A stretch of 27,356 nt of DNA from a virus. The notes under the pieces are model-generated. The model saw nothing but the letters and a program-made list of their open reading frames with translations. It did not search any database and was not told the DNA's origin. Of the stretch, positions 96 through 16,071 are shown in pieces. The position numbers and the translations under genes were made by a program. Position 1 is the first letter of the stretch; every line of letters begins with the position of its first letter. The DNA lies in IMG/VR virus record IMGVR_UViG_3300031240_000038, positions 1 to 27,356 of that record; one strand, given 5' to 3'.

Positions 96-137
96 ATGGA
101 AAAGAAGGCTGACCACGTGGTGAAGTGCCGTGGGTGA
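96..137 (+). CDS. 13-residue leader ORF upstream of the initiator-like gene
   Basis: ATG 96 follows a very strong Shine-Dalgarno (AGGAGGAG, 86-93) and opens a 13-codon frame, MEKKADHVVKCRG, ending at TGA 135-137. That stop lies inside the start region of the next gene (GTG 130), which itself has only a weak ribosome site. The arrangement suggests the mini-ORF loads ribosomes that then translate the winged-helix gene by coupling. It may have no product function. The short length makes coding status uncertain. Confidence 0.35.
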   Translation: MEKKADHVVKCRG

Positions 138-693
138 GTACAAGAAGATCACCAGCATGTTCGACGCGCGGTACAACATGTGCCGTGAGATCGAGGAGAC
201 CGGCAAGGTCGGGACTGCTGGGGATATCGCCGTCCTGTTCTACATGCTGTCCTCCGCGTGGTGGGGGGACAAGTTCCACAAGAAGGAAGACGGTGTGGTG
301 GACTCCAAGTTCGCCACCCAGGATGCCATCGTGAAATACACCGGCCTGTCCCGGTCGACCGTGTTCCGCAGCCTGAAGAGTCTGCGTGAAGCCGGGTGGA
401 TTCTTATGTGGCCAGCCGACGACGGCGGGTTGCAGGTGCAGGTGCTCCTAACCCCCCAGAACCGGCGTGACAGGGACCACCGAAGGAAGCTGGCAAAATC
501 TCAATCTGACACATCAAAATCTCAAATTGACACTCGCCAGTCTCAATTTGACACTGGTCAGTCTCAAATTGACACAGCGCACCACCTCTCACCTGCGGAT
601 ATGCGTCTTCTAGAACTAACGAATTCTAGAACTAACGAAGACGCTTGCGCGTCACCGTCGTTGCTTACTCACCCACCAAGGAGGCCGAAGTGA
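130..693 (+). CDS. winged-helix DNA-binding protein, candidate replication initiator (lambda O-like)
   Basis: The protein has 187 residues and starts at GTG 130. Residues about 60-100 form a winged helix-turn-helix typical of replication initiators and lambda O N-domains (ATQDAIVKYTGLSRSTVFRS, then an LREAGW wing helix). Residues about 124-149 hold four heptads of the type SQxDTxx. They are encoded by four 21-bp-spaced direct repeats that look like iterons. The C-terminus (about 150-187) is Thr/Pro/Arg-rich and probably disordered. In lambda, O binds iterons inside its own gene to open the origin; the same layout is seen here. An unknown gene sits directly after it (GTGA overlap), followed shortly by a DnaB-type helicase, as in lambda-like O-P or initiator-loader-helicase orders. 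The role in origin binding is inferred; a transcription regulator is the alternative. Confidence 0.6.
   Translation: MGEYKKITSMFDARYNMCREIEETGKVGTAGDIAVLFYMLSSAWWGDKFHKKEDGVVDSKFATQDAIVKYTGLSRSTVFRSLKSLREAGWILMWPADDGGLQVQVLLTPQNRRDRDHRRKLAKSQSDTSKSQIDTRQSQFDTGQSQIDTAHHLSPADMRLLELTNSRTNEDACASPSLLTHPPRRPK
499..575 (+). repeat. four iteron-like direct repeats, 21-bp period
   Basis: A 14-bp core, TCTCAAATTGACAC (with small variants), occurs at 499-512, 520-533, 541-554 and 562-575. The spacing is exactly 21 bp, two turns of the helix, so all copies face the same side of the DNA. The repeats lie in the coding sequence of the winged-helix gene and are A/T-rich compared with their surroundings. The pattern resembles phage and plasmid iterons bound by an initiator. 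Confidence 0.8.
603..644 (+). repeat. 16-bp perfect tandem repeat inside an 8-bp inverted repeat
   Basis: TTCTAGAACTAACGAA occurs twice back to back (608-623 and 624-639). The pair is framed by GCGTCTTC (603-610) and its reverse complement GAAGACGC (637-644). CTAGAA (610-615) pairs with TTCTAG (624-629). The block is A/T-rich in a G/C-rich genome and sits 28 bp after the last iteron, so it could be the DNA-unwinding part of an origin. No T-run follows, which argues against a terminator. Confidence 0.7.
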
Positions 694-1244
694 GTAATCG
701 CAAGAGCTGGGACAAGGAAGTCGCAGAGAAGATCAGGGACACCAGGGCAACCTCCCGTCCCTCGTACCGTCAGGACCCCCGGCACCAGGAGAGGAAGGGG
801 CCCCGCGAGTTCGACAGGAACCAGTGCCCCGCAGGATGGGACCCGGACGTCTGGTCCCTGGCCCTGCAGTTCGAGCAGTGTGCCGCCAGGGAGGGAATCC
901 AGCTCGCCGTGGGCAGGCCGATCATCTACGCCGCACTCAAGGACCGCTGCGATGACTTCCGCCAGGTTCTCTACCTCCGCAAGAAGCGGTGGTCCCTGGA
1001 CGGCAGCAACCGGAGTGCCCCGTGGCAGGAGGTTGTGTCAGCGGCGATCACCCGGCACTTCGCGCGGTACCACGAGGATGAGTACGCCGTCGACTTCTTT
1101 TGCGGGCCGGTGGTGTTCAGCGATATGATCAAGGAAGTCTGGCAGCACGGGCACAACCTGTGGATCGTACGGCAGATCGAGGAGCAGTACGGCCCGTCAG
1201 ACTACGAGCAGAGCTACGCCAAGGAGGAACCTGGCCATGAGTGA
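690..1244 (+). CDS. unknown protein between initiator and helicase; loader position
   Basis: The start is GTG 690, preceded by AAGGAGG (679-685) and overlapping the upstream stop as GTGA. The product has 184 residues, a basic N-terminal third (about residues 1-50, many Arg, Lys and Asp) and a folded, aromatic-rich remainder. No P-loop or zinc motif is visible, so it is not a DnaC-type ATPase by sequence. Its place between a lambda O-like gene and a DnaB-type helicase would suit a helicase loader such as lambda P, but this is position only. An in-frame ATG at 645 lies inside the repeat-bearing gene and has no good ribosome site. Confidence 0.75.
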   Translation: MSNRKSWDKEVAEKIRDTRATSRPSYRQDPRHQERKGPREFDRNQCPAGWDPDVWSLALQFEQCAAREGIQLAVGRPIIYAALKDRCDDFRQVLYLRKKRWSLDGSNRSAPWQEVVSAAITRHFARYHEDEYAVDFFCGPVVFSDMIKEVWQHGHNLWIVRQIEEQYGPSDYEQSYAKEEPGHE

Positions 1245-1539: not shown

Positions 1540-1766
1540 CCGAGCGCCAGACATTCCACTGCGGCGCGGAGGTCATGCCTATTCTGCGTACGCACTGCTT
1601 GCAGGAGGAGTTCTTCCGGCAGCAGCTAGCGTTGGTGACCGGCCCGCTGTTCGGCATCGACATCTTCGAGGAGCCGGACTTCCCGGAGCACTACTTCGAG
1701 ATCCGTAAGGGCGCGGACGTACTCCTCACCGGATTCATAGAGGCAGGCAATGGATCTAGGACGTGA
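1536..1766 (+). CDS. unknown 76-residue protein
   Basis: ATG 1536 overlaps the upstream stop as ATGA, the usual coupling in this window. The product is acidic in its second half (IFEEPDFPEHYFEI). Its N-terminus holds Cys8 and Cys22, too few for an obvious zinc site. The frame extends upstream without a stop, but the ATGA junction marks the likely start. The end overlaps the helicase start by 17 bases. No function was recognised. Confidence 0.65.
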   Translation: MTERQTFHCGAEVMPILRTHCLQEEFFRQQLALVTGPLFGIDIFEEPDFPEHYFEIRKGADVLLTGFIEAGNGSRT

Positions 1767-3030
1767 GCTACTCCGCGCCGTTTTAACAGAGAAGGGCGCT
1801 CTCAAGAAGTTCCTGGACGCAGGGTTCGGGCCCGACTGGATTAACGACAAGCAGGATCTTTCCCGCGCCGCGATCTTCGGGGACTCGGACCTTGACGCCT
1901 ACCGGTTTATCCTCCGGCACTGGGAGGACTACCGTGAGGTCCCGAGCCTGAGCTTCTTCCAGCATTCCTACCCGCCCGAGTCCCTTCGCCTGCCGAAGTC
2001 CGATCTCAAGGTCGAAGAACTCCTGGCGATGGTGAAGTCCGACGTGACCCGCGTCCAACTGGAAGAGGGCGGCTCGGAATTCATCGACGCGTTCGAGTCC
2101 GGTGACCTTGAACTCGCGATCTCCAAGATGGAAGAGACCGCCCGGAAGATCCGCGCGGAGCGGACTAGCCGGAGTGTGCAGATCCCCTGGGACAGCCAGG
2201 ACTATGACCTTGAGTCCAAGCTGAACCGCAAGGAGAAGCCGGGCATTCGCACGGGTATCCCGAAGCTAGACGAGAAGTTCTCCGGCTGGCAGTCGAGCGA
2301 GATGATAACCTTCCTCGGCCGGGCTAAGGCCTGCAAGACCAGTCACTTGCTCAAGGCCGCGCTTCAGGCTCACGAGGACGGCTGGAATTCCCTCGTGGTC
2401 ACGGTGGAAATCAAGGGCGAGTCGATTGCCGAGCGGCTGGATTGCTTCGCCGCCGGGGTTGAATACGACCGGTACGTTCGCGGACGCCTGGACGAGGTTG
2501 AGAAGAAGCGCGTCCGGATGGCGAAGTCGAATCGCGGCAATGAGGAGTACCTCCACGTCATTCAGCCGACCGGGAAGTACACCATCCAGGATCTTGAGAT
2601 GGACATCGAGAGGTACCGCCCGCACGTCGTGTTCCTTGACGGCTTCTACTTCCTGATCGACAGCAAGACGGGGAAGCCCGGGTCGAACTGGGAGGGTCAC
2701 GATAACCTCGCCGCCGACCTGCACAATCTCTGCCTCCGGCATAACATCGTGATCGTCGTGACGATGCAGGTCCGGGAGAAGCAGGCGCGCGGTGGCAAGA
2801 AGGGCGACCTGGACGACAACACGATGATGGGCGGTACCGGCCTGATCATGTTCTCTGACATGGTGCTGACGCTGGACATGGACCGGGAGACCTGGCTGAA
2901 TACGATCCAGTGCTCGCGCTCCCGTACCAGGTACCTGCCCACGGTCAAGGGCACCTGGCACTGGGCGCGGTCGGAGTTCCGGGTGATGGAGAACTTCGAT
3001 GACGACGACGAAGAGGACGAGGACGAGTAA
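1750..3030 (+). CDS. replicative DNA helicase, DnaB-like (RecA fold)
   Basis: The protein has 426 residues. Residues 1-140 are a helical N-domain, followed by a DnaB-type RecA core: phosphate-binding loop GRAKACKTS at 190-198, a helicase glutamate in VVTVEIKGES (217-226), Walker B VVFLDGF (293-299), a Gln-containing motif VVTMQVREKQ, and a C-terminal region ending in a run of Asp/Glu (417-426). DnaB helicases unwind the fork as hexamers using ATP or dNTPs. The Walker A loop has Cys195 where GxxxxGK[ST] expects Gly. Primase, polymerase and SSB genes follow. The acidic tail is encoded by bases that also act as a Shine-Dalgarno for the next gene. Confidence 0.85.
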   Translation: MDLGRELLRAVLTEKGALKKFLDAGFGPDWINDKQDLSRAAIFGDSDLDAYRFILRHWEDYREVPSLSFFQHSYPPESLRLPKSDLKVEELLAMVKSDVTRVQLEEGGSEFIDAFESGDLELAISKMEETARKIRAERTSRSVQIPWDSQDYDLESKLNRKEKPGIRTGIPKLDEKFSGWQSSEMITFLGRAKACKTSHLLKAALQAHEDGWNSLVVTVEIKGESIAERLDCFAAGVEYDRYVRGRLDEVEKKRVRMAKSNRGNEEYLHVIQPTGKYTIQDLEMDIERYRPHVVFLDGFYFLIDSKTGKPGSNWEGHDNLAADLHNLCLRHNIVIVVTMQVREKQARGGKKGDLDDNTMMGGTGLIMFSDMVLTLDMDRETWLNTIQCSRSRTRYLPTVKGTWHWARSEFRVMENFDDDDEEDEDE

Positions 3031-3167
3031 TGGCTATGCACTACCACGGGACCCCCGGCGTGGTTAACCCCTGCTGGTGCGGTCGTCCGGAAAGCAAGTG
3101 GCCCAACGGAATCAAGCCCGAGCCCGGGGACCGGGACCTCCGGGTGCCACAAGACGAGGACGAGTAA
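3030..3167 (+). CDS. small unknown protein with CWC motif
   Basis: ATG 3030 shares the A of the helicase stop (TAATG), so translation is likely coupled. The product has 45 residues. A short CWCG segment (residues 15-18) is followed by many Pro, Lys and charged residues, and it ends in QDEDE. One Cys pair alone cannot form a full zinc site, though a dimer could. Too short for family recognition. Confidence 0.6.
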   Translation: MAMHYHGTPGVVNPCWCGRPESKWPNGIKPEPGDRDLRVPQDEDE

Positions 3168-3346
3168 TGGAACCACGGATAAGAGGACACATCATGGAAC
3201 CACGGATAGTCACGCGGGAGGACCAGGAGATTCTGGACCCGGTGTATGAGGAAGCCTTCAAGATCTGGGGCAACACTCCGAGGTACCGGCTGGCCTGCGA
3301 CCTGATCACCAGGGCATTCGTGCTAGGGAAGTACAGGGACGAGTAA
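3167..3346 (+). CDS. small unknown protein with duplicated start
   Basis: Two in-frame starts exist, ATG 3167 (TAATG overlap with the previous stop) and ATG 3194 (after AAGAGGACAC). Both begin the same 15-base string ATGGAACCACGGATA, so the product is 59 or 50 residues. The body is helical and charged (VTREDQEILDPVYEEAFKIW) and ends RDE. No family was recognised. Confidence 0.65.
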   Translation: MEPRIRGHIMEPRIVTREDQEILDPVYEEAFKIWGNTPRYRLACDLITRAFVLGKYRDE

Positions 3347-3510: not shown

Positions 3511-3752
3511 TGTTTGAGCATGCAGCGCAGGATGCGTACATAGAGGAGCTTGAAGAGACCATCGATCATCTTTATGCCTGGCTGGTCGAGGTTGTGCATT
3601 TCCCGTTCGACTTTAACTTCGGTGACAAGCCGGAGTGGCTGAACGTTGAGAAGCTTGCACGCAAGTGGCATGAGTACGAGGGCAGCCAGGATTCGGTCGA
3701 GGACTACATTGCCACGATCTATATCGAAACATCATGGGGCCCTGATTCATGA
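3510..3752 (+). CDS. unknown 80-residue protein
   Basis: ATG 3510 uses the last base of the previous TAA, and GAGGA just upstream serves as ribosome site. The protein is rich in Glu, Trp and His, with a helical N-terminus (AYIEELEETIDHLYAWLVEV). Its stop overlaps the primase start as ATGA. No motif was recognised. Position between helicase and primase suggests a replication accessory, which is inference. Confidence 0.7.
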   Translation: MFEHAAQDAYIEELEETIDHLYAWLVEVVHFPFDFNFGDKPEWLNVEKLARKWHEYEGSQDSVEDYIATIYIETSWGPDS

Positions 3753-4708
3753 CCGAGCGGCGCGAGTTCATCCGGCGGCCGGTGCCGAGCGACGTTCCGG
3801 CTGCCCTGGACGAGCTTGGCCTGGACTATTCCATTGGCGGGGACAACGCTAAGATCCTCTGCCTGTTCCACCAGGACCATAGCCCCTCGTGCTATGTCCA
3901 CGTCGACAGTGGCGTCTTCCATTGCTTTGTCTGCGACAAGGCGGGTCAGTTCGTACAGCTCGTACAGCGCGTCAAGGGCATGTCTGAGGAGAAGGCAGCA
4001 CTCTGGTGCCAGACTCGTGCGATCGGCCGTCTCCGTGGCGCTGCGGACCGTCTGGAGCTATCCTCGCACCGAGTCGACACGACCCGCGTGATAAACGAGG
4101 CGAGCCTTGCCCTCTTCACCGCGCCACCGGAGAAAGAACTGCGGAAGCGTGGCATCGATTTCGACGCGGCCGAGTCCCTTGGCATACTATGGGACCCGAA
4201 GGAGCGCGCCTGGATTCTGCCCATGAGGGACGAGGACGGGAAGCTCGCGGGCTGGCAGGTTAAGAGGGGCCACGATGTCTGGAACTACCCGGGAGATGAC
4301 CGGAAGCGTGGAGTGGGGGGCGTCCAGAAAGCAGACTACCTATTCGGACTCCATGCCATCTCTCATGATCCTCCAGTTAGAGGCGTTCTGGTGGAAAGTC
4401 CACTCGACGTTGCTGTCTTCCGGAGTGCCGGATGCCGAAGCGCGGTCTCTAGCTACGGCGTACGTGTATCAGGTGTGCAGCTCTCTCTTCTGACGTCACA
4501 CTGTGACGAGCTTATCTTCGCGGGAGACAACGACGAGGCCGGATGGGAAATGGCCGAGCTGCTACGCAAGGAATTCAAGCGGCTGCCGCTGAGCTTCTAT
4601 AACTACGGCGAGACGAAGTGCAAGGACCCGGGCGAGCTGTGGCTGGAGGGAGAGGACATACTGTGGGGAATTCAGAACGCGACGCGGCGGATGACAGTGC
4701 GGTTCTAG
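3749..4708 (+). CDS. DNA primase, CHC2 zinc finger plus TOPRIM
   Basis: The protein has 319 residues. An N-terminal CHC2-type zinc ribbon uses Cys38, His41, Cys59 and Cys62 (LCLFHQDHSPSC, then FHCFVC). A TOPRIM domain follows, with acidic residues Glu216 (VLVESPLDVAVF) and Asp260/Asp262 (FAGDNDEAGWEMA). DnaG-type primases make RNA primers for lagging-strand synthesis. It is shorter than bacterial DnaG (about 580-640 residues) and lacks the C-terminal helicase-binding domain, as in many phage primases. The helicase is encoded separately just upstream. The start at ATG 3749 overlaps the previous stop by 4 bases. Confidence 0.85.
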   Translation: MTERREFIRRPVPSDVPAALDELGLDYSIGGDNAKILCLFHQDHSPSCYVHVDSGVFHCFVCDKAGQFVQLVQRVKGMSEEKAALWCQTRAIGRLRGAADRLELSSHRVDTTRVINEASLALFTAPPEKELRKRGIDFDAAESLGILWDPKERAWILPMRDEDGKLAGWQVKRGHDVWNYPGDDRKRGVGGVQKADYLFGLHAISHDPPVRGVLVESPLDVAVFRSAGCRSAVSSYGVRVSGVQLSLLTSHCDELIFAGDNDEAGWEMAELLRKEFKRLPLSFYNYGETKCKDPGELWLEGEDILWGIQNATRRMTVRF

Positions 4709-4920
4709 ACCACGAATGGGCCTACATGGACCTGCTGGACGACACGGGCCGCATGGTGTGGCAGGGAAGGATCTGCATAGAGGGCGAAGAGGACGTCGAC
4801 CGCATTAACGAGATCGTCCGGCCCTACCTGAACGTGTCGCTGACTGAGAACGCGGTGCATGAACTACTTTCCGTACTGCTTCAAGCAGGGTACTCGACAC
4901 GGACTAAGGGATCACGCTGA
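4663..4920 (+). CDS. unknown protein after primase, start uncertain
   Basis: The open frame ends at TGA 4918-4920. GTG 4663 has a good ribosome site (GGAGGGAGAGG about 10 bases upstream) but overlaps the primase by 46 bases. ATG 4726 would avoid the overlap but lacks a clear site. I prefer 4663, giving 85 residues. The core reads VWQGRICIEGEEDVDRINEI, suggesting a small alpha/beta fold. No family was recognised. Confidence 0.55.
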   Translation: MGNSERDAADDSAVLDHEWAYMDLLDDTGRMVWQGRICIEGEEDVDRINEIVRPYLNVSLTENAVHELLSVLLQAGYSTRTKGSR

Positions 4921-5556: not shown

Positions 5557-7223
5557 TGCTGACTGGAAAACTTCACCCGTACCAGGACCCCGTAGTCGAC
5601 GCCGCGCTCGACCGGGGCCGGTACCTTATCGCCGCAGACATGGGTACCGGCAAGACCGTGATGTCCATAGCAGTGGCCGAGGAGCTTCTCGGCTGCGGTG
5701 ATATTAGCCGCGTGCTTATAGTCGTCCCGTCGTCCCTGAAGTACCAGTGGGCTCAGAGCCTTTCGAAGTTCACCGACCTGCCGTCAAAGGAAATCAAGGT
5801 CGGCAAGAAGAAGATCACCGTCCCGGCAGATCCGAAGTGCGTCATCATCGACGGGCGCACATTCCAGAAGAACAAGGTGAAGTACTCGGCCGCCGACGAC
5901 CGGAAGCGCCAGTACGATTCGGTGACTGACGAGACTGAGTACGTGGTCCTGAGCTACGAGTCCATCCTTGACGACTCGCGCCAGGTACGGAAGCTCCACC
6001 CCGGCCTGGTTATCCTTGACGAGTGCACGCAGATAAAGTCATTCCGCGCGCAGCGGTCGAAGAAGATAAAGCGCATGCTTGACGCCGAGTACCGCATAGG
6101 ACTTACCGGAACGCCAATCGAGAATGGCAGGCCGGAGGAACTGTTCTCAATCATGCAGTGGGTTGACGAGTACGTGCTCGGACGGTGGGACTTCTTCGAC
6201 AAGACATACATCCGGCGCGACTCGAATGGCATCTCCAAGGGGTACAAGAACCTCCCGGTCCTGCGCGAGCGGCTTGCCCCCGCGATGTCCCGGCTGTCCC
6301 GGACAGACAAGGGCGTCAAGAGCTACATGCCCGACGTCGAAGAGGACGAGTGGGAGGTCCCGCTTGAGGGACCAATTCGTGACGCCTACTTCGCAATGGC
6401 CCGGCACCTGTACGCGGAGCTAAAGAACCTAGGCTATGCAGGCCGGAAGTTCAGCGTCTCGGATTACTACGGCGGACAGGCAGACGAGAACACAAAGGTC
6501 GGCCGGGTAATGGCCGTCCACATGGCAATGGAAATGCTGCTGGATCACCCTGACCTTGTGGTCGCGTCGGGCATGTCGTACGAGAAGACAAAAGACTTGC
6601 CATATGAGCAGCGAAAGGGCTCGAAGTACGCGTACCAGGTCTGGCAGGAGGGCCTGCTTGATGACGTATGGGACTCCCCGAAGCTAGAGCACTTGAAACT
6701 TCAGCTAAATGAGCGCCTGGCGGCAGGGACGAATAAGATCCTGGTGTACACAAAGTACCGGACCATGATCCCTATCCTCGTGGAGTACCTGGGAATGCCA
6801 ACGGTCCAGTATCACGGGGAGATGACGTCCAGCCAGAAAGCCGCTGCGGTCGTTAAGTTCGCGGACCCGGCCGGTCCTCAGGTGTTCCTTTCCAGTCATG
6901 CCGGTGCCTACGGGTGCGACATGAACATGGCAGACCACCTGGTGAACTATGACAATGCCTGGCAGGCGGGCAAGGCTGATCAGATTAACGCCCGCCACGT
7001 CCGCGCTTCTAGTGAGTTCTCCATGGTGCGCGTCAGCCGCATGCTCTTTGCTGACACGATTGAGCGCCGCATCCTGGACTCCCAGGTACACAAGCGCCGC
7101 GTGTCCGGCGCGGTCATGGACGGGCACGGTGCCGACAAGTACGGCCGGGTCGACAACGACGTGATCTCCCTGACGAAGTTCCTGGAGGAGACTGTCCCGG
7201 ACGTCGACCTCGTTTTGCCTTGA
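5556..7223 (+). CDS. SNF2-type superfamily 2 DNA helicase/translocase
   Basis: The protein has 555 residues with SF2/SNF2 motifs in order: HPYQ at the N-terminus, motif I DMGTGKT (28-34), motif Ia IVVPSSLKYQW (55-65), motif II LDECTQIKS (154-162; DEC instead of DEAH), motif III LTGTPIEN (183-190), motif IV/V region ILVYTKYRTM with a later FLSSHAGAYGCD, and motif VI QINARHVRASSE. SNF2 proteins translocate on double-stranded DNA. Phage members are annotated as helicases with roles in replication, recombination or repair, usually untested. It ends the first replication block; promoter-like sequence follows. Confidence 0.85.
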   Translation: MLTGKLHPYQDPVVDAALDRGRYLIAADMGTGKTVMSIAVAEELLGCGDISRVLIVVPSSLKYQWAQSLSKFTDLPSKEIKVGKKKITVPADPKCVIIDGRTFQKNKVKYSAADDRKRQYDSVTDETEYVVLSYESILDDSRQVRKLHPGLVILDECTQIKSFRAQRSKKIKRMLDAEYRIGLTGTPIENGRPEELFSIMQWVDEYVLGRWDFFDKTYIRRDSNGISKGYKNLPVLRERLAPAMSRLSRTDKGVKSYMPDVEEDEWEVPLEGPIRDAYFAMARHLYAELKNLGYAGRKFSVSDYYGGQADENTKVGRVMAVHMAMEMLLDHPDLVVASGMSYEKTKDLPYEQRKGSKYAYQVWQEGLLDDVWDSPKLEHLKLQLNERLAAGTNKILVYTKYRTMIPILVEYLGMPTVQYHGEMTSSQKAAAVVKFADPAGPQVFLSSHAGAYGCDMNMADHLVNYDNAWQAGKADQINARHVRASSEFSMVRVSRMLFADTIERRILDSQVHKRRVSGAVMDGHGADKYGRVDNDVISLTKFLEETVPDVDLVLP

Positions 7224-14392: not shown

Positions 14393-15508
14393 ATGCCCCT
14401 GAGCCCAGAAGTCATCGCCTGGATGGCGCAGTTAAACAAGTCGATCGGACCGGACACGATTGTCCGCGCGTCGGACATCGTGGTGGCCAAGCGCTTCCCG
14501 TCCGGCAGCCTCGCGCTTGACGTCGCACTCGGCGGCGGATGGCCTGGCAACCAGGCCGTGGAAGTCGTTGGCAACGAGTCCAGCGGGAAGACGTACACCG
14601 TACTGAAGACAATCGCGGCGAACCAGAAGCTCGACCCCGAATTCACGACCTTCTGGGTCGCCGCCGAGCACTACTCCCCCGATCAGGCCGCCGCCCTTGG
14701 CGTCGATAACGAGCGGGTCGTCGTCGCTCCCGCCGCGCAGCAGGCCGAGGTCGGGCTGGACCTCATGCTGGACGCCCTGGAATCCAAGCTCTACGACTGC
14801 GTGGTACTCGATTCATTCCCCGCCCTCATTCCAAAGGAAGAGGACGAGAAGGCGATGAACGAGGCGGTCATGGCGACCGGCGCGAAGCTGTTCAATAAGT
14901 TCTGGCGGAAGTACGGCACCGCCTCGCACCGGAACAGCGACGGTACCGAGCGCCCCTACCTCCTGATCGTGATAAACCAGTTCCGAGACAAGATCGGCGG
15001 ATTCCAGAAGTTCGGCGTCCCGCAGACGACACCCGGAGGACACGGAAAGGACTACGCGTTCTACACCCGGGTCAAGGTCGCACGCGATGAATGGATCACG
15101 GAGAAGCGCCCAGGTCTCCCGGACCCCGTTGTCGTCGGCCAGGTCATGGCCTACAAGACGACCAAGAACAAGTCCGCCGCGCCGCAGCAGACCGCTAAGG
15201 TTCGCGCGTACACCCGGAACGCTCCTTTCCTCGGATTCCACCGGGGGGACTACGACCTAGGCTCCGATTACGTCGACATGGGCATTCTCTTCGGCGTCGT
15301 CCAGCTAAAGGGCTCGTGGCTGAATTACGACGGACAGCAGTGGCAGGGCAAGGACGCCATGAAGGACTCCGTTCGCGAGGACGTCGATCTTCAGGTTAAG
15401 CTCGCGGCTGAGGTTCTGGAAGTCGCCGCCGACCCGCGCAAGGCCGACGCAATCCTACAACAGGCCGTCGAGGAAGCTCCACGGCGCAAGAGGGGACGTT
15501 CAGCATGA
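14393..15508 (+). CDS. RecA-like recombinase (UvsX/RecA family)
   Basis: ATG 14393 follows GTAGGAGGACTT. The 371-residue protein has a short N-terminal region, then SLALDVALGGGWPGNQAVEV (39-58), Walker A GNESSGKT (60-67), a catalytic-glutamate region FWVAAEHYS, Walker B CVVLDSFPALIP near residue 140, and an L1/L2 region LIVINQFRDKIG with TTPGGHGKDYAFYTRVKV. The C-terminus is basic (RRKRGR). RecA-type proteins form filaments on single-stranded DNA and drive strand exchange. It leads a unit with a resolvase-like nuclease and a Cas4/RecB-like nuclease, a sensible recombination set. It could also be classed as UvsX; sequence reading alone cannot decide. Confidence 0.85.
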   Translation: MPLSPEVIAWMAQLNKSIGPDTIVRASDIVVAKRFPSGSLALDVALGGGWPGNQAVEVVGNESSGKTYTVLKTIAANQKLDPEFTTFWVAAEHYSPDQAAALGVDNERVVVAPAAQQAEVGLDLMLDALESKLYDCVVLDSFPALIPKEEDEKAMNEAVMATGAKLFNKFWRKYGTASHRNSDGTERPYLLIVINQFRDKIGGFQKFGVPQTTPGGHGKDYAFYTRVKVARDEWITEKRPGLPDPVVVGQVMAYKTTKNKSAAPQQTAKVRAYTRNAPFLGFHRGDYDLGSDYVDMGILFGVVQLKGSWLNYDGQQWQGKDAMKDSVREDVDLQVKLAAEVLEVAADPRKADAILQQAVEEAPRRKRGRSA

Positions 15509-16071
15509 CGCTCATCGCAGGAGCCGTCACATCAGACGGGCACGTATGGCTTTCCGGAGACCGTGCCGCCCTTTCGCCGGAGGAACTGATCGCGGACGTG
15601 ATCAAGCAGCCGAAGGTATTCCAGAACGGCGAGTTCCTTATCGGCGGTAGCGAGTCTTTCAGGATGCTGCAGGTACTCCGGTACCAGCTAGAGCCACCCT
15701 TCCTCACGGACCTGGGCCTTTCAAACGGGGACCCCATGGGCTACATGGTCGAGGAGTTCGTCCCGGAGGTCCGCGAGCTTCTCACCAAGAACGGGTTCAA
15801 CGAGACTGGTGAAGAGGCCGCTCCCCCCGGCAATATCATGGTCGGAATTCGCGGCCACCTCTACGTCATCCAGGGTGACTACGCGGTCATGGAGTCTACT
15901 GACCCGTTCGACGCCATCGGATTCGGCAAGACGGCATTCATGGGTGCAATGCACGCGCTGCGCATAGCTCAGCCGAAGCTCGCGATCCACCATCAGCTTT
16001 CGGTAGCGATGGATTGCGCCGAGCGCGTGACCTTCGCCGTCAAGGGCCCGTTCGATCTCCTGGGCATCTGA
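15505..16071 (+). CDS. proteasome/HslV-like Ntn hydrolase
   Basis: The 188-residue protein starts MTLIAGAVTSDGHVWLSGDR, closely resembling the N-terminus of HslV and proteasome beta subunits. There, removal of Met exposes a catalytic Thr. Thr2 would be the nucleophile, with Asp19 in SGD and a Lys in IKQPKVF as expected partners. FLIGGSESFRMLQVL fits the following strand-helix, and IGFGKTAFMGAMHAL resembles the family's G-x-G-x-x-A-x-G-A segment. No ATPase partner such as HslU is encoded nearby. Similar proteins occur in actinophages without known substrate. It overlaps the RecA-like gene by 4 bases. Confidence 0.75.
   Translation: MTLIAGAVTSDGHVWLSGDRAALSPEELIADVIKQPKVFQNGEFLIGGSESFRMLQVLRYQLEPPFLTDLGLSNGDPMGYMVEEFVPEVRELLTKNGFNETGEEAAPPGNIMVGIRGHLYVIQGDYAVMESTDPFDAIGFGKTAFMGAMHALRIAQPKLAIHHQLSVAMDCAERVTFAVKGPFDLLGI

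Follow-up and report, generated by a model that had tools for sequence, protein, structure and literature searches.

We conclude that four 14-bp direct repeats very probably form the iterons of a phage replication origin, and that this putative origin sits within the gene for its own predicted initiator, in the style of lambda, SPP1 and Tuc2009. The repeats were found in a window of 27,356 nt, the whole stretch of DNA analyzed here, whose source record is a 27-kb virus fragment. The initial annotation had already read this DNA as a candidate in-gene origin, and that reading is favored by the sequence: by matches of the protein to initiator families, by its position ahead of a DnaB gene, by apparent constraint at the DNA level, by adjacent unstable DNA, and by the repeats of relatives. 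In-gene origins are already well known, and the present case is another example of a known design; what it appears to add is that initiator and in-gene repeats seem to be swapped as one unit in one slot.

Four phased repeats adjoin unstable DNA

The features of the candidate origin are as follows.

130..693, plus strand: putative replication initiator gene (187 aa), with a winged-helix (wHTH) domain at about residues 10-108 and then a predicted disordered tail that holds the repeats
499..512, plus strand: candidate iteron 1, TCTCAATCTGACAC
520..533, plus strand: candidate iteron 2, TCTCAAATTGACAC
541..554, plus strand: candidate iteron 3, TCTCAATTTGACAC, with a dyad at 539-555 (7 of 8 arm pairs)
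562..575, plus strand: candidate iteron 4, TCTCAAATTGACAC
477..640, no strand: AT-rich region in which the DNA of the window is least stable; GC is lowest in the 100-mer at 479 (0.43 versus a mean of 0.61)
608..639, plus strand: two perfect tandem copies of the 16-bp TTCTAGAACTAACGAA, not in codon phase, which may belong to a DNA-unwinding element

Copies of the repeat, TCTCAAWYTGACAC, start at 499, 520, 541 and 562, which is 21 bp from start to start without a single indel; the four 21-bp-spaced repeats first noticed in a winged-helix gene are thus confirmed, with exact phasing, in ORF 130-693. Self-alignment of the initiator gene at period 21 scores 37, whereas 1,000 dinucleotide shuffles gave a mean of 8.5 and a maximum of 15, none of them reaching 37. 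Within the window, the four array sites are the only exact matches to TCTCAAWYTGACAC, and the two matches outside the array, with three mismatches each, are at chance level. An IMG/VR search with the exact repeat pair found a near-identical contig only. Every iteron is an imperfect dyad with the center TCAA-N-TTGA, the best being that of iteron 3. The 7-bp spacers diverge among the iterons and the cores are kept, the two variable core bases being those at the dyad center.

Nearest-neighbor energies put the stability minimum of the contig at or beside the repeats in the window and in two of the relatives described below, L004 and L025, at most of the window sizes tested; in a third relative, L026, the repeats fall within the top 0.3% least stable DNA of the contig. 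The minimum in the window spans both the iterons and the 608-639 duplication, and the 40-bp segment 599-638 ranks with the least stable of that length in the contig. By this measure, a predicted AT-rich unwinding element adjoins the iterons. Cumulative GC skew was followed in L004, a 112-kb contig, where the minimum lies at 46.5 kb and the iterons at 49.4 kb, about 3 kb apart. The turn agrees with a nearby origin, yet it roughly coincides with the boundary between structural and early (replication) genes; genes are mostly on the plus strand on either side of it.

The protein resembles phage initiators and its gene precedes a DnaB gene

The product of ORF 130-693 matches Pfam HTH_36 (E 1e-5). 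Its best phage-family match, a moderate one, is PHROG 8102, "replication initiation protein" (E 2e-8); several other initiator matches are weak, those to the O-like families PHROG 678 (E 0.0018) and PHROG 391 (E 0.0022) among them. AF2 with three aligned sequences gave a block-mean pLDDT of 77-90 for residues 61-100, in the wHTH domain, and values mostly below 50 for residues 109-187, placing the repeats in a predicted disordered tail. A helix through the repeats, modeled at low confidence by single-sequence AF2, was gone with three sequences and was dropped. Fold matches in the PDB are generic MarR/Fur-like regulators, and those among the BFVD viral models include annotated replication initiators. 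Together, family match and predicted fold suggest that the gene encodes a DNA-binding replication initiator. Searches with tblastn gave no match to it, whether in phages (at E 0.1) or in plasmids (at E 1); at E 10 there were weak matches to the wHTH region alone, most of them in phages of enterobacteria some 145 kb in size. Three of these phages had no in-gene arrays comparable to that of the window.

Three ORFs (645-1244, 1237-1539 and 1314-1766) lie between the initiator and DnaB genes. The initial annotation had placed the initiator just upstream of helicase and primase, which is roughly right once these ORFs and the actual positions of the two genes are allowed for.

645..1244, plus strand: 199-aa protein of unknown family, encoded between the genes for initiator and helicase, with homologs at the same position in L004 (63-64%) and L025 (41%)
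1750..3030, plus strand: DnaB-like replicative helicase (Pfam DnaB_C, E 1.5e-13; PHROG 19, E 5e-34)
3749..4708, plus strand: DnaG-like primase with zinc ribbon and Toprim (Pfam, PHROG)

Genes for an SNF2-type helicase and a Pol A polymerase are also found downstream of the initiator. The 199-aa protein has no match in Pfam, PHROG or the PDB, and its true start may be the GTG at 690, given that alignment of the L004 homolog begins at that codon. It occupies the helicase-loader position, and this position suggests that it could be a loader. Between the DnaB and primase genes, at 3156-3208, there is an imperfect 27-bp tandem repeat, GAGGACAAATAATGGAACCACGGATAA. Farther downstream, next to a UvsX-like recombinase, the gene at 15505-16071 has an HslV-like peptidase family match (phrog_1040, E 1.3e-10).

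The best-surviving alternative makes the wHTH protein a regulator of transcription, with the repeats as its binding sites for control of downstream early genes and with no origin involved. The MarR/Fur-like character of the PDB fold matches would fit this, as would the -35-like letters, of TTGACA or CTGACA type, in each repeat. However, autoregulatory operators usually lie upstream of a gene rather than in its 3' half, and no promoter-like pair was found near the repeats. The family matches, moreover, are to initiators, which also appear among the BFVD fold matches, and both the location before DnaB and the AT-rich minimum suit an origin. We consider a purely regulatory array unlikely; regulation and initiation by the same repeats could coexist.

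Relatives carry other initiators and other repeats in the same slot

Four further IMG/VR contigs were examined: L001, L004, L025 and L026. L001 is near-identical to the window (99.96% over 5.6 kb) save for a 27-bp in-frame difference upstream. Because of this difference, a leader ORF that overlaps the GTG start of the initiator gene encodes 13 aa in the window (96-137) and 22 aa in L001 (4940-5008).

In L004, the flanks are kept: the upstream 147-aa protein at 87%, the 199-aa protein, and DnaB at 92% amino acid identity. The initiator between them has no BLASTP match. Its repeats, GATCACA at 4827, 4854 and 4876, cross the stop of the initiator gene at 4852. L025 likewise keeps its neighbors (upstream protein 60%, 199-aa protein 41%, DnaB 47%) and has another initiator, with CACAG..GGCAA three times, at 6903, 6936 and 6958, near the gene end. 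L026 keeps the upstream protein (60%), and the end of its contig falls within or beyond the initiator gene; here GACCGATCCGAACAGTTCCGAAT occurs three times (two copies exact, one 91%) with a 23-bp period, so that no two copies share a reading frame. The same-slot proteins of L004, L025 and L026 also match replication-initiation families.

All three relatives thus have other repeats at the matching position, each with dyads and adjoining very unstable DNA. The arrays of L004 and L025 are modest: their repeats are imperfect, and their scores of 17 and 16 narrowly top the 15 that was the most reached by 1,000 shuffles. The initiators of the window, L004 and L025 align at 25-29% identity, which means that remote common descent is possible. 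To judge from these contigs, the slot stays in place among conserved neighbors, and the initiator and its in-gene repeats appear to change together, as a unit. Among named phages the window DNA has no DNA-level relatives, and a scan of genome contigs found no relative.

The conserved element seems to be DNA rather than peptide

The iterons share one frame in ORF 130-693 and encode SQSDTSK, SQIDTRQ, SQFDTGQ and SQIDTAH. The SQ(I/F/S)DT heptads could in principle have a function as peptide, such as docking or oligomerization, with the DNA repetition a mere consequence; that four of four copies are in frame is what this explanation would predict. Synonymous resampling with phage codon usage also reached the observed repeat score often, in 74 of 2,000 trials. 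This result arises because the encoded peptide itself repeats, and biased codon usage is a further confounder. Permutation of codons within the initiator gene reached the score in 3 of 2,000. We set synonymous resampling aside as the main proof, and DNA constraint is argued from the rare codons and the relatives instead.

The codons argue against a peptide motif. TCT and CAA, which the phage picks 8% of the time, stand in all four repeats, and codon adaptiveness, scored in 5,546 27-codon segments of phage genes, reaches its minimum over the repeats (-1.26; mean -0.33, SD 0.18), so that composition seems to be held at the DNA level. The variable core bases, which sit at the dyad center, are those that change the residue among S, I and F, and the tail is predicted to be disordered. 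As for the relatives, L026 and L004 rule out a peptide as what is conserved there, because the repeats are read in three frames in the former and run past the stop in the latter. A pattern of protein heptads kept and DNA repeats lost, which the initial annotation had named as telling against an origin, is absent: the relatives have in-gene DNA repeats and no SQxDT heptads. We conclude that the conserved item seems to be the DNA, and we give a peptide-driven origin of the repeats very little credence.

Neutral minisatellite expansion in the disordered tail, without function, is more improbable still: tandem repeats do form readily, and the 16-bp duplication next to the array has a recent look, but the spacers have diverged around conserved cores and three relatives with other initiators carry other repeats, with dyads and unstable DNA, at the matching position.

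Likenesses to and differences from known origins

In lambda and Stx phages, oriLambda lies in gene O, with mid-gene iterons, four in lambda, made of dyad-like units and adjoined by an AT-rich tract (PMC7466680). The window is alike in having four dyad-like iterons in the middle of an initiator gene together with an AT-rich tract. It differs in that the phage has its own DnaB and primase and no recognized homolog of gene P, and the likeness of its initiator to O is at the level of the weak O-like PHROG matches, with no homology shown by BLASTP. The string CTCAAATTG, common to the window repeats and lambda iteron 3, was treated as coincidence.

The arrangement also resembles that of SPP1, where oriL lies in gene 38, followed by the loader gp39 and the DnaB helicase gp40 (PMC6316719). 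Both have an initiator gene containing direct repeats and an AT-rich element, then an intervening gene, then DnaB; unlike in SPP1, the intervening 199-aa protein, in the place of gp39, is not recognizably a gp39 relative. No second origin was seen: beyond the array, the 112-kb relative has just one TGATCACA. In the lactococcal phages Tuc2009 and TP901-1, the replisome organizer genes contain their own ori repeats (cited in PMC8965321). These phages share with the window direct repeats within the cognate gene as an origin, here a candidate one; they are temperate phages of Firmicutes, and a relationship was undetectable at the sensitivity used.

Closer to the likely host, an origin has been proposed within or immediately upstream of repA in the mycobacteriophages Miko and Rachaly, in which repeated motifs were not found (PMC7157519). 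These are likewise phages of actinobacteria, as we infer for the window, with a proposed origin in or near the initiator gene. Their replication, however, is that of a plasmid-like prophage, whereas the window has clear repeats near DnaB, primase and Pol A genes. The initial view that such an origin had gone undescribed in actinophages is weakened by the repA proposal, although that proposal came without repeats. Our search of open-access papers found no report of in-gene iterons in an actinophage.

The nearest named relatives are Borockvirus BRock and its relatives, phages of Streptomyces with 112-115 kb of DNA. Identity to their proteins is 41% for Pol A, 38% for the SNF2-type helicase, 34% for the primase and 32% for the upstream 147-aa protein, and an actinobacterial host is therefore likely. 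In BRock-like phages the homolog of the 147-aa protein directly precedes DnaB, with no initiator cassette in that place, and no comparable iteron array was found upstream of DnaB in BRock, pSt2308, Cantare or Finch. BRock has a DnaC-like loader, to which the 112-kb relative has no detectable match.

A model for initiation and for exchange of the origin

In the model that we favor, the wHTH protein would bind the four dyad-like iterons as dimers, and the complexes would stack along a single face of the helix, their 21-bp spacing being equal to two turns. The assembled initiator might then bend the DNA and help to melt the AT-rich stretch formed by the iterons and positions 599-640. The phage DnaB would be loaded next, possibly by the 199-aa product, and phage primase and Pol A would act thereafter. 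Because the peptide encoded by the iterons is a predicted disordered tail with little constraint of its own, the cis site and the trans factor could be inherited and exchanged as a unit.

We also offer a more tentative idea, which we think less likely than not: that in these soil phages the initiator-plus-origin cassette is a unit of fast turnover, in which wHTH initiator and iterons are replaced together in one fixed slot between conserved neighbors, perhaps because selection favors evasion of satellites or host plasmids bearing the phage origin. If so, placement of the iterons within the gene would be what keeps the cis site and the trans factor from being separated when cassettes are swapped. 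Mapped origins of large actinophages appear to be few, and the window offers a precise candidate. It is open to a clean test by synonymous recoding, and a short segment might serve as a phage-derived replicon. With four initiator and iteron sets in one slot, both initiator-iteron specificity and the reason for origin exchange become directly testable.

Finally, a separate array was observed in the Erwinia phage pEp_SNUABM_01. At 1789-1831, just 5' of an annotated replication initiation protein, TCAATTTGAGCATAGGC occurs twice with a 23-bp period, and these repeats have the dyad core TCAATTTGA, as does iteron 3 of the window.
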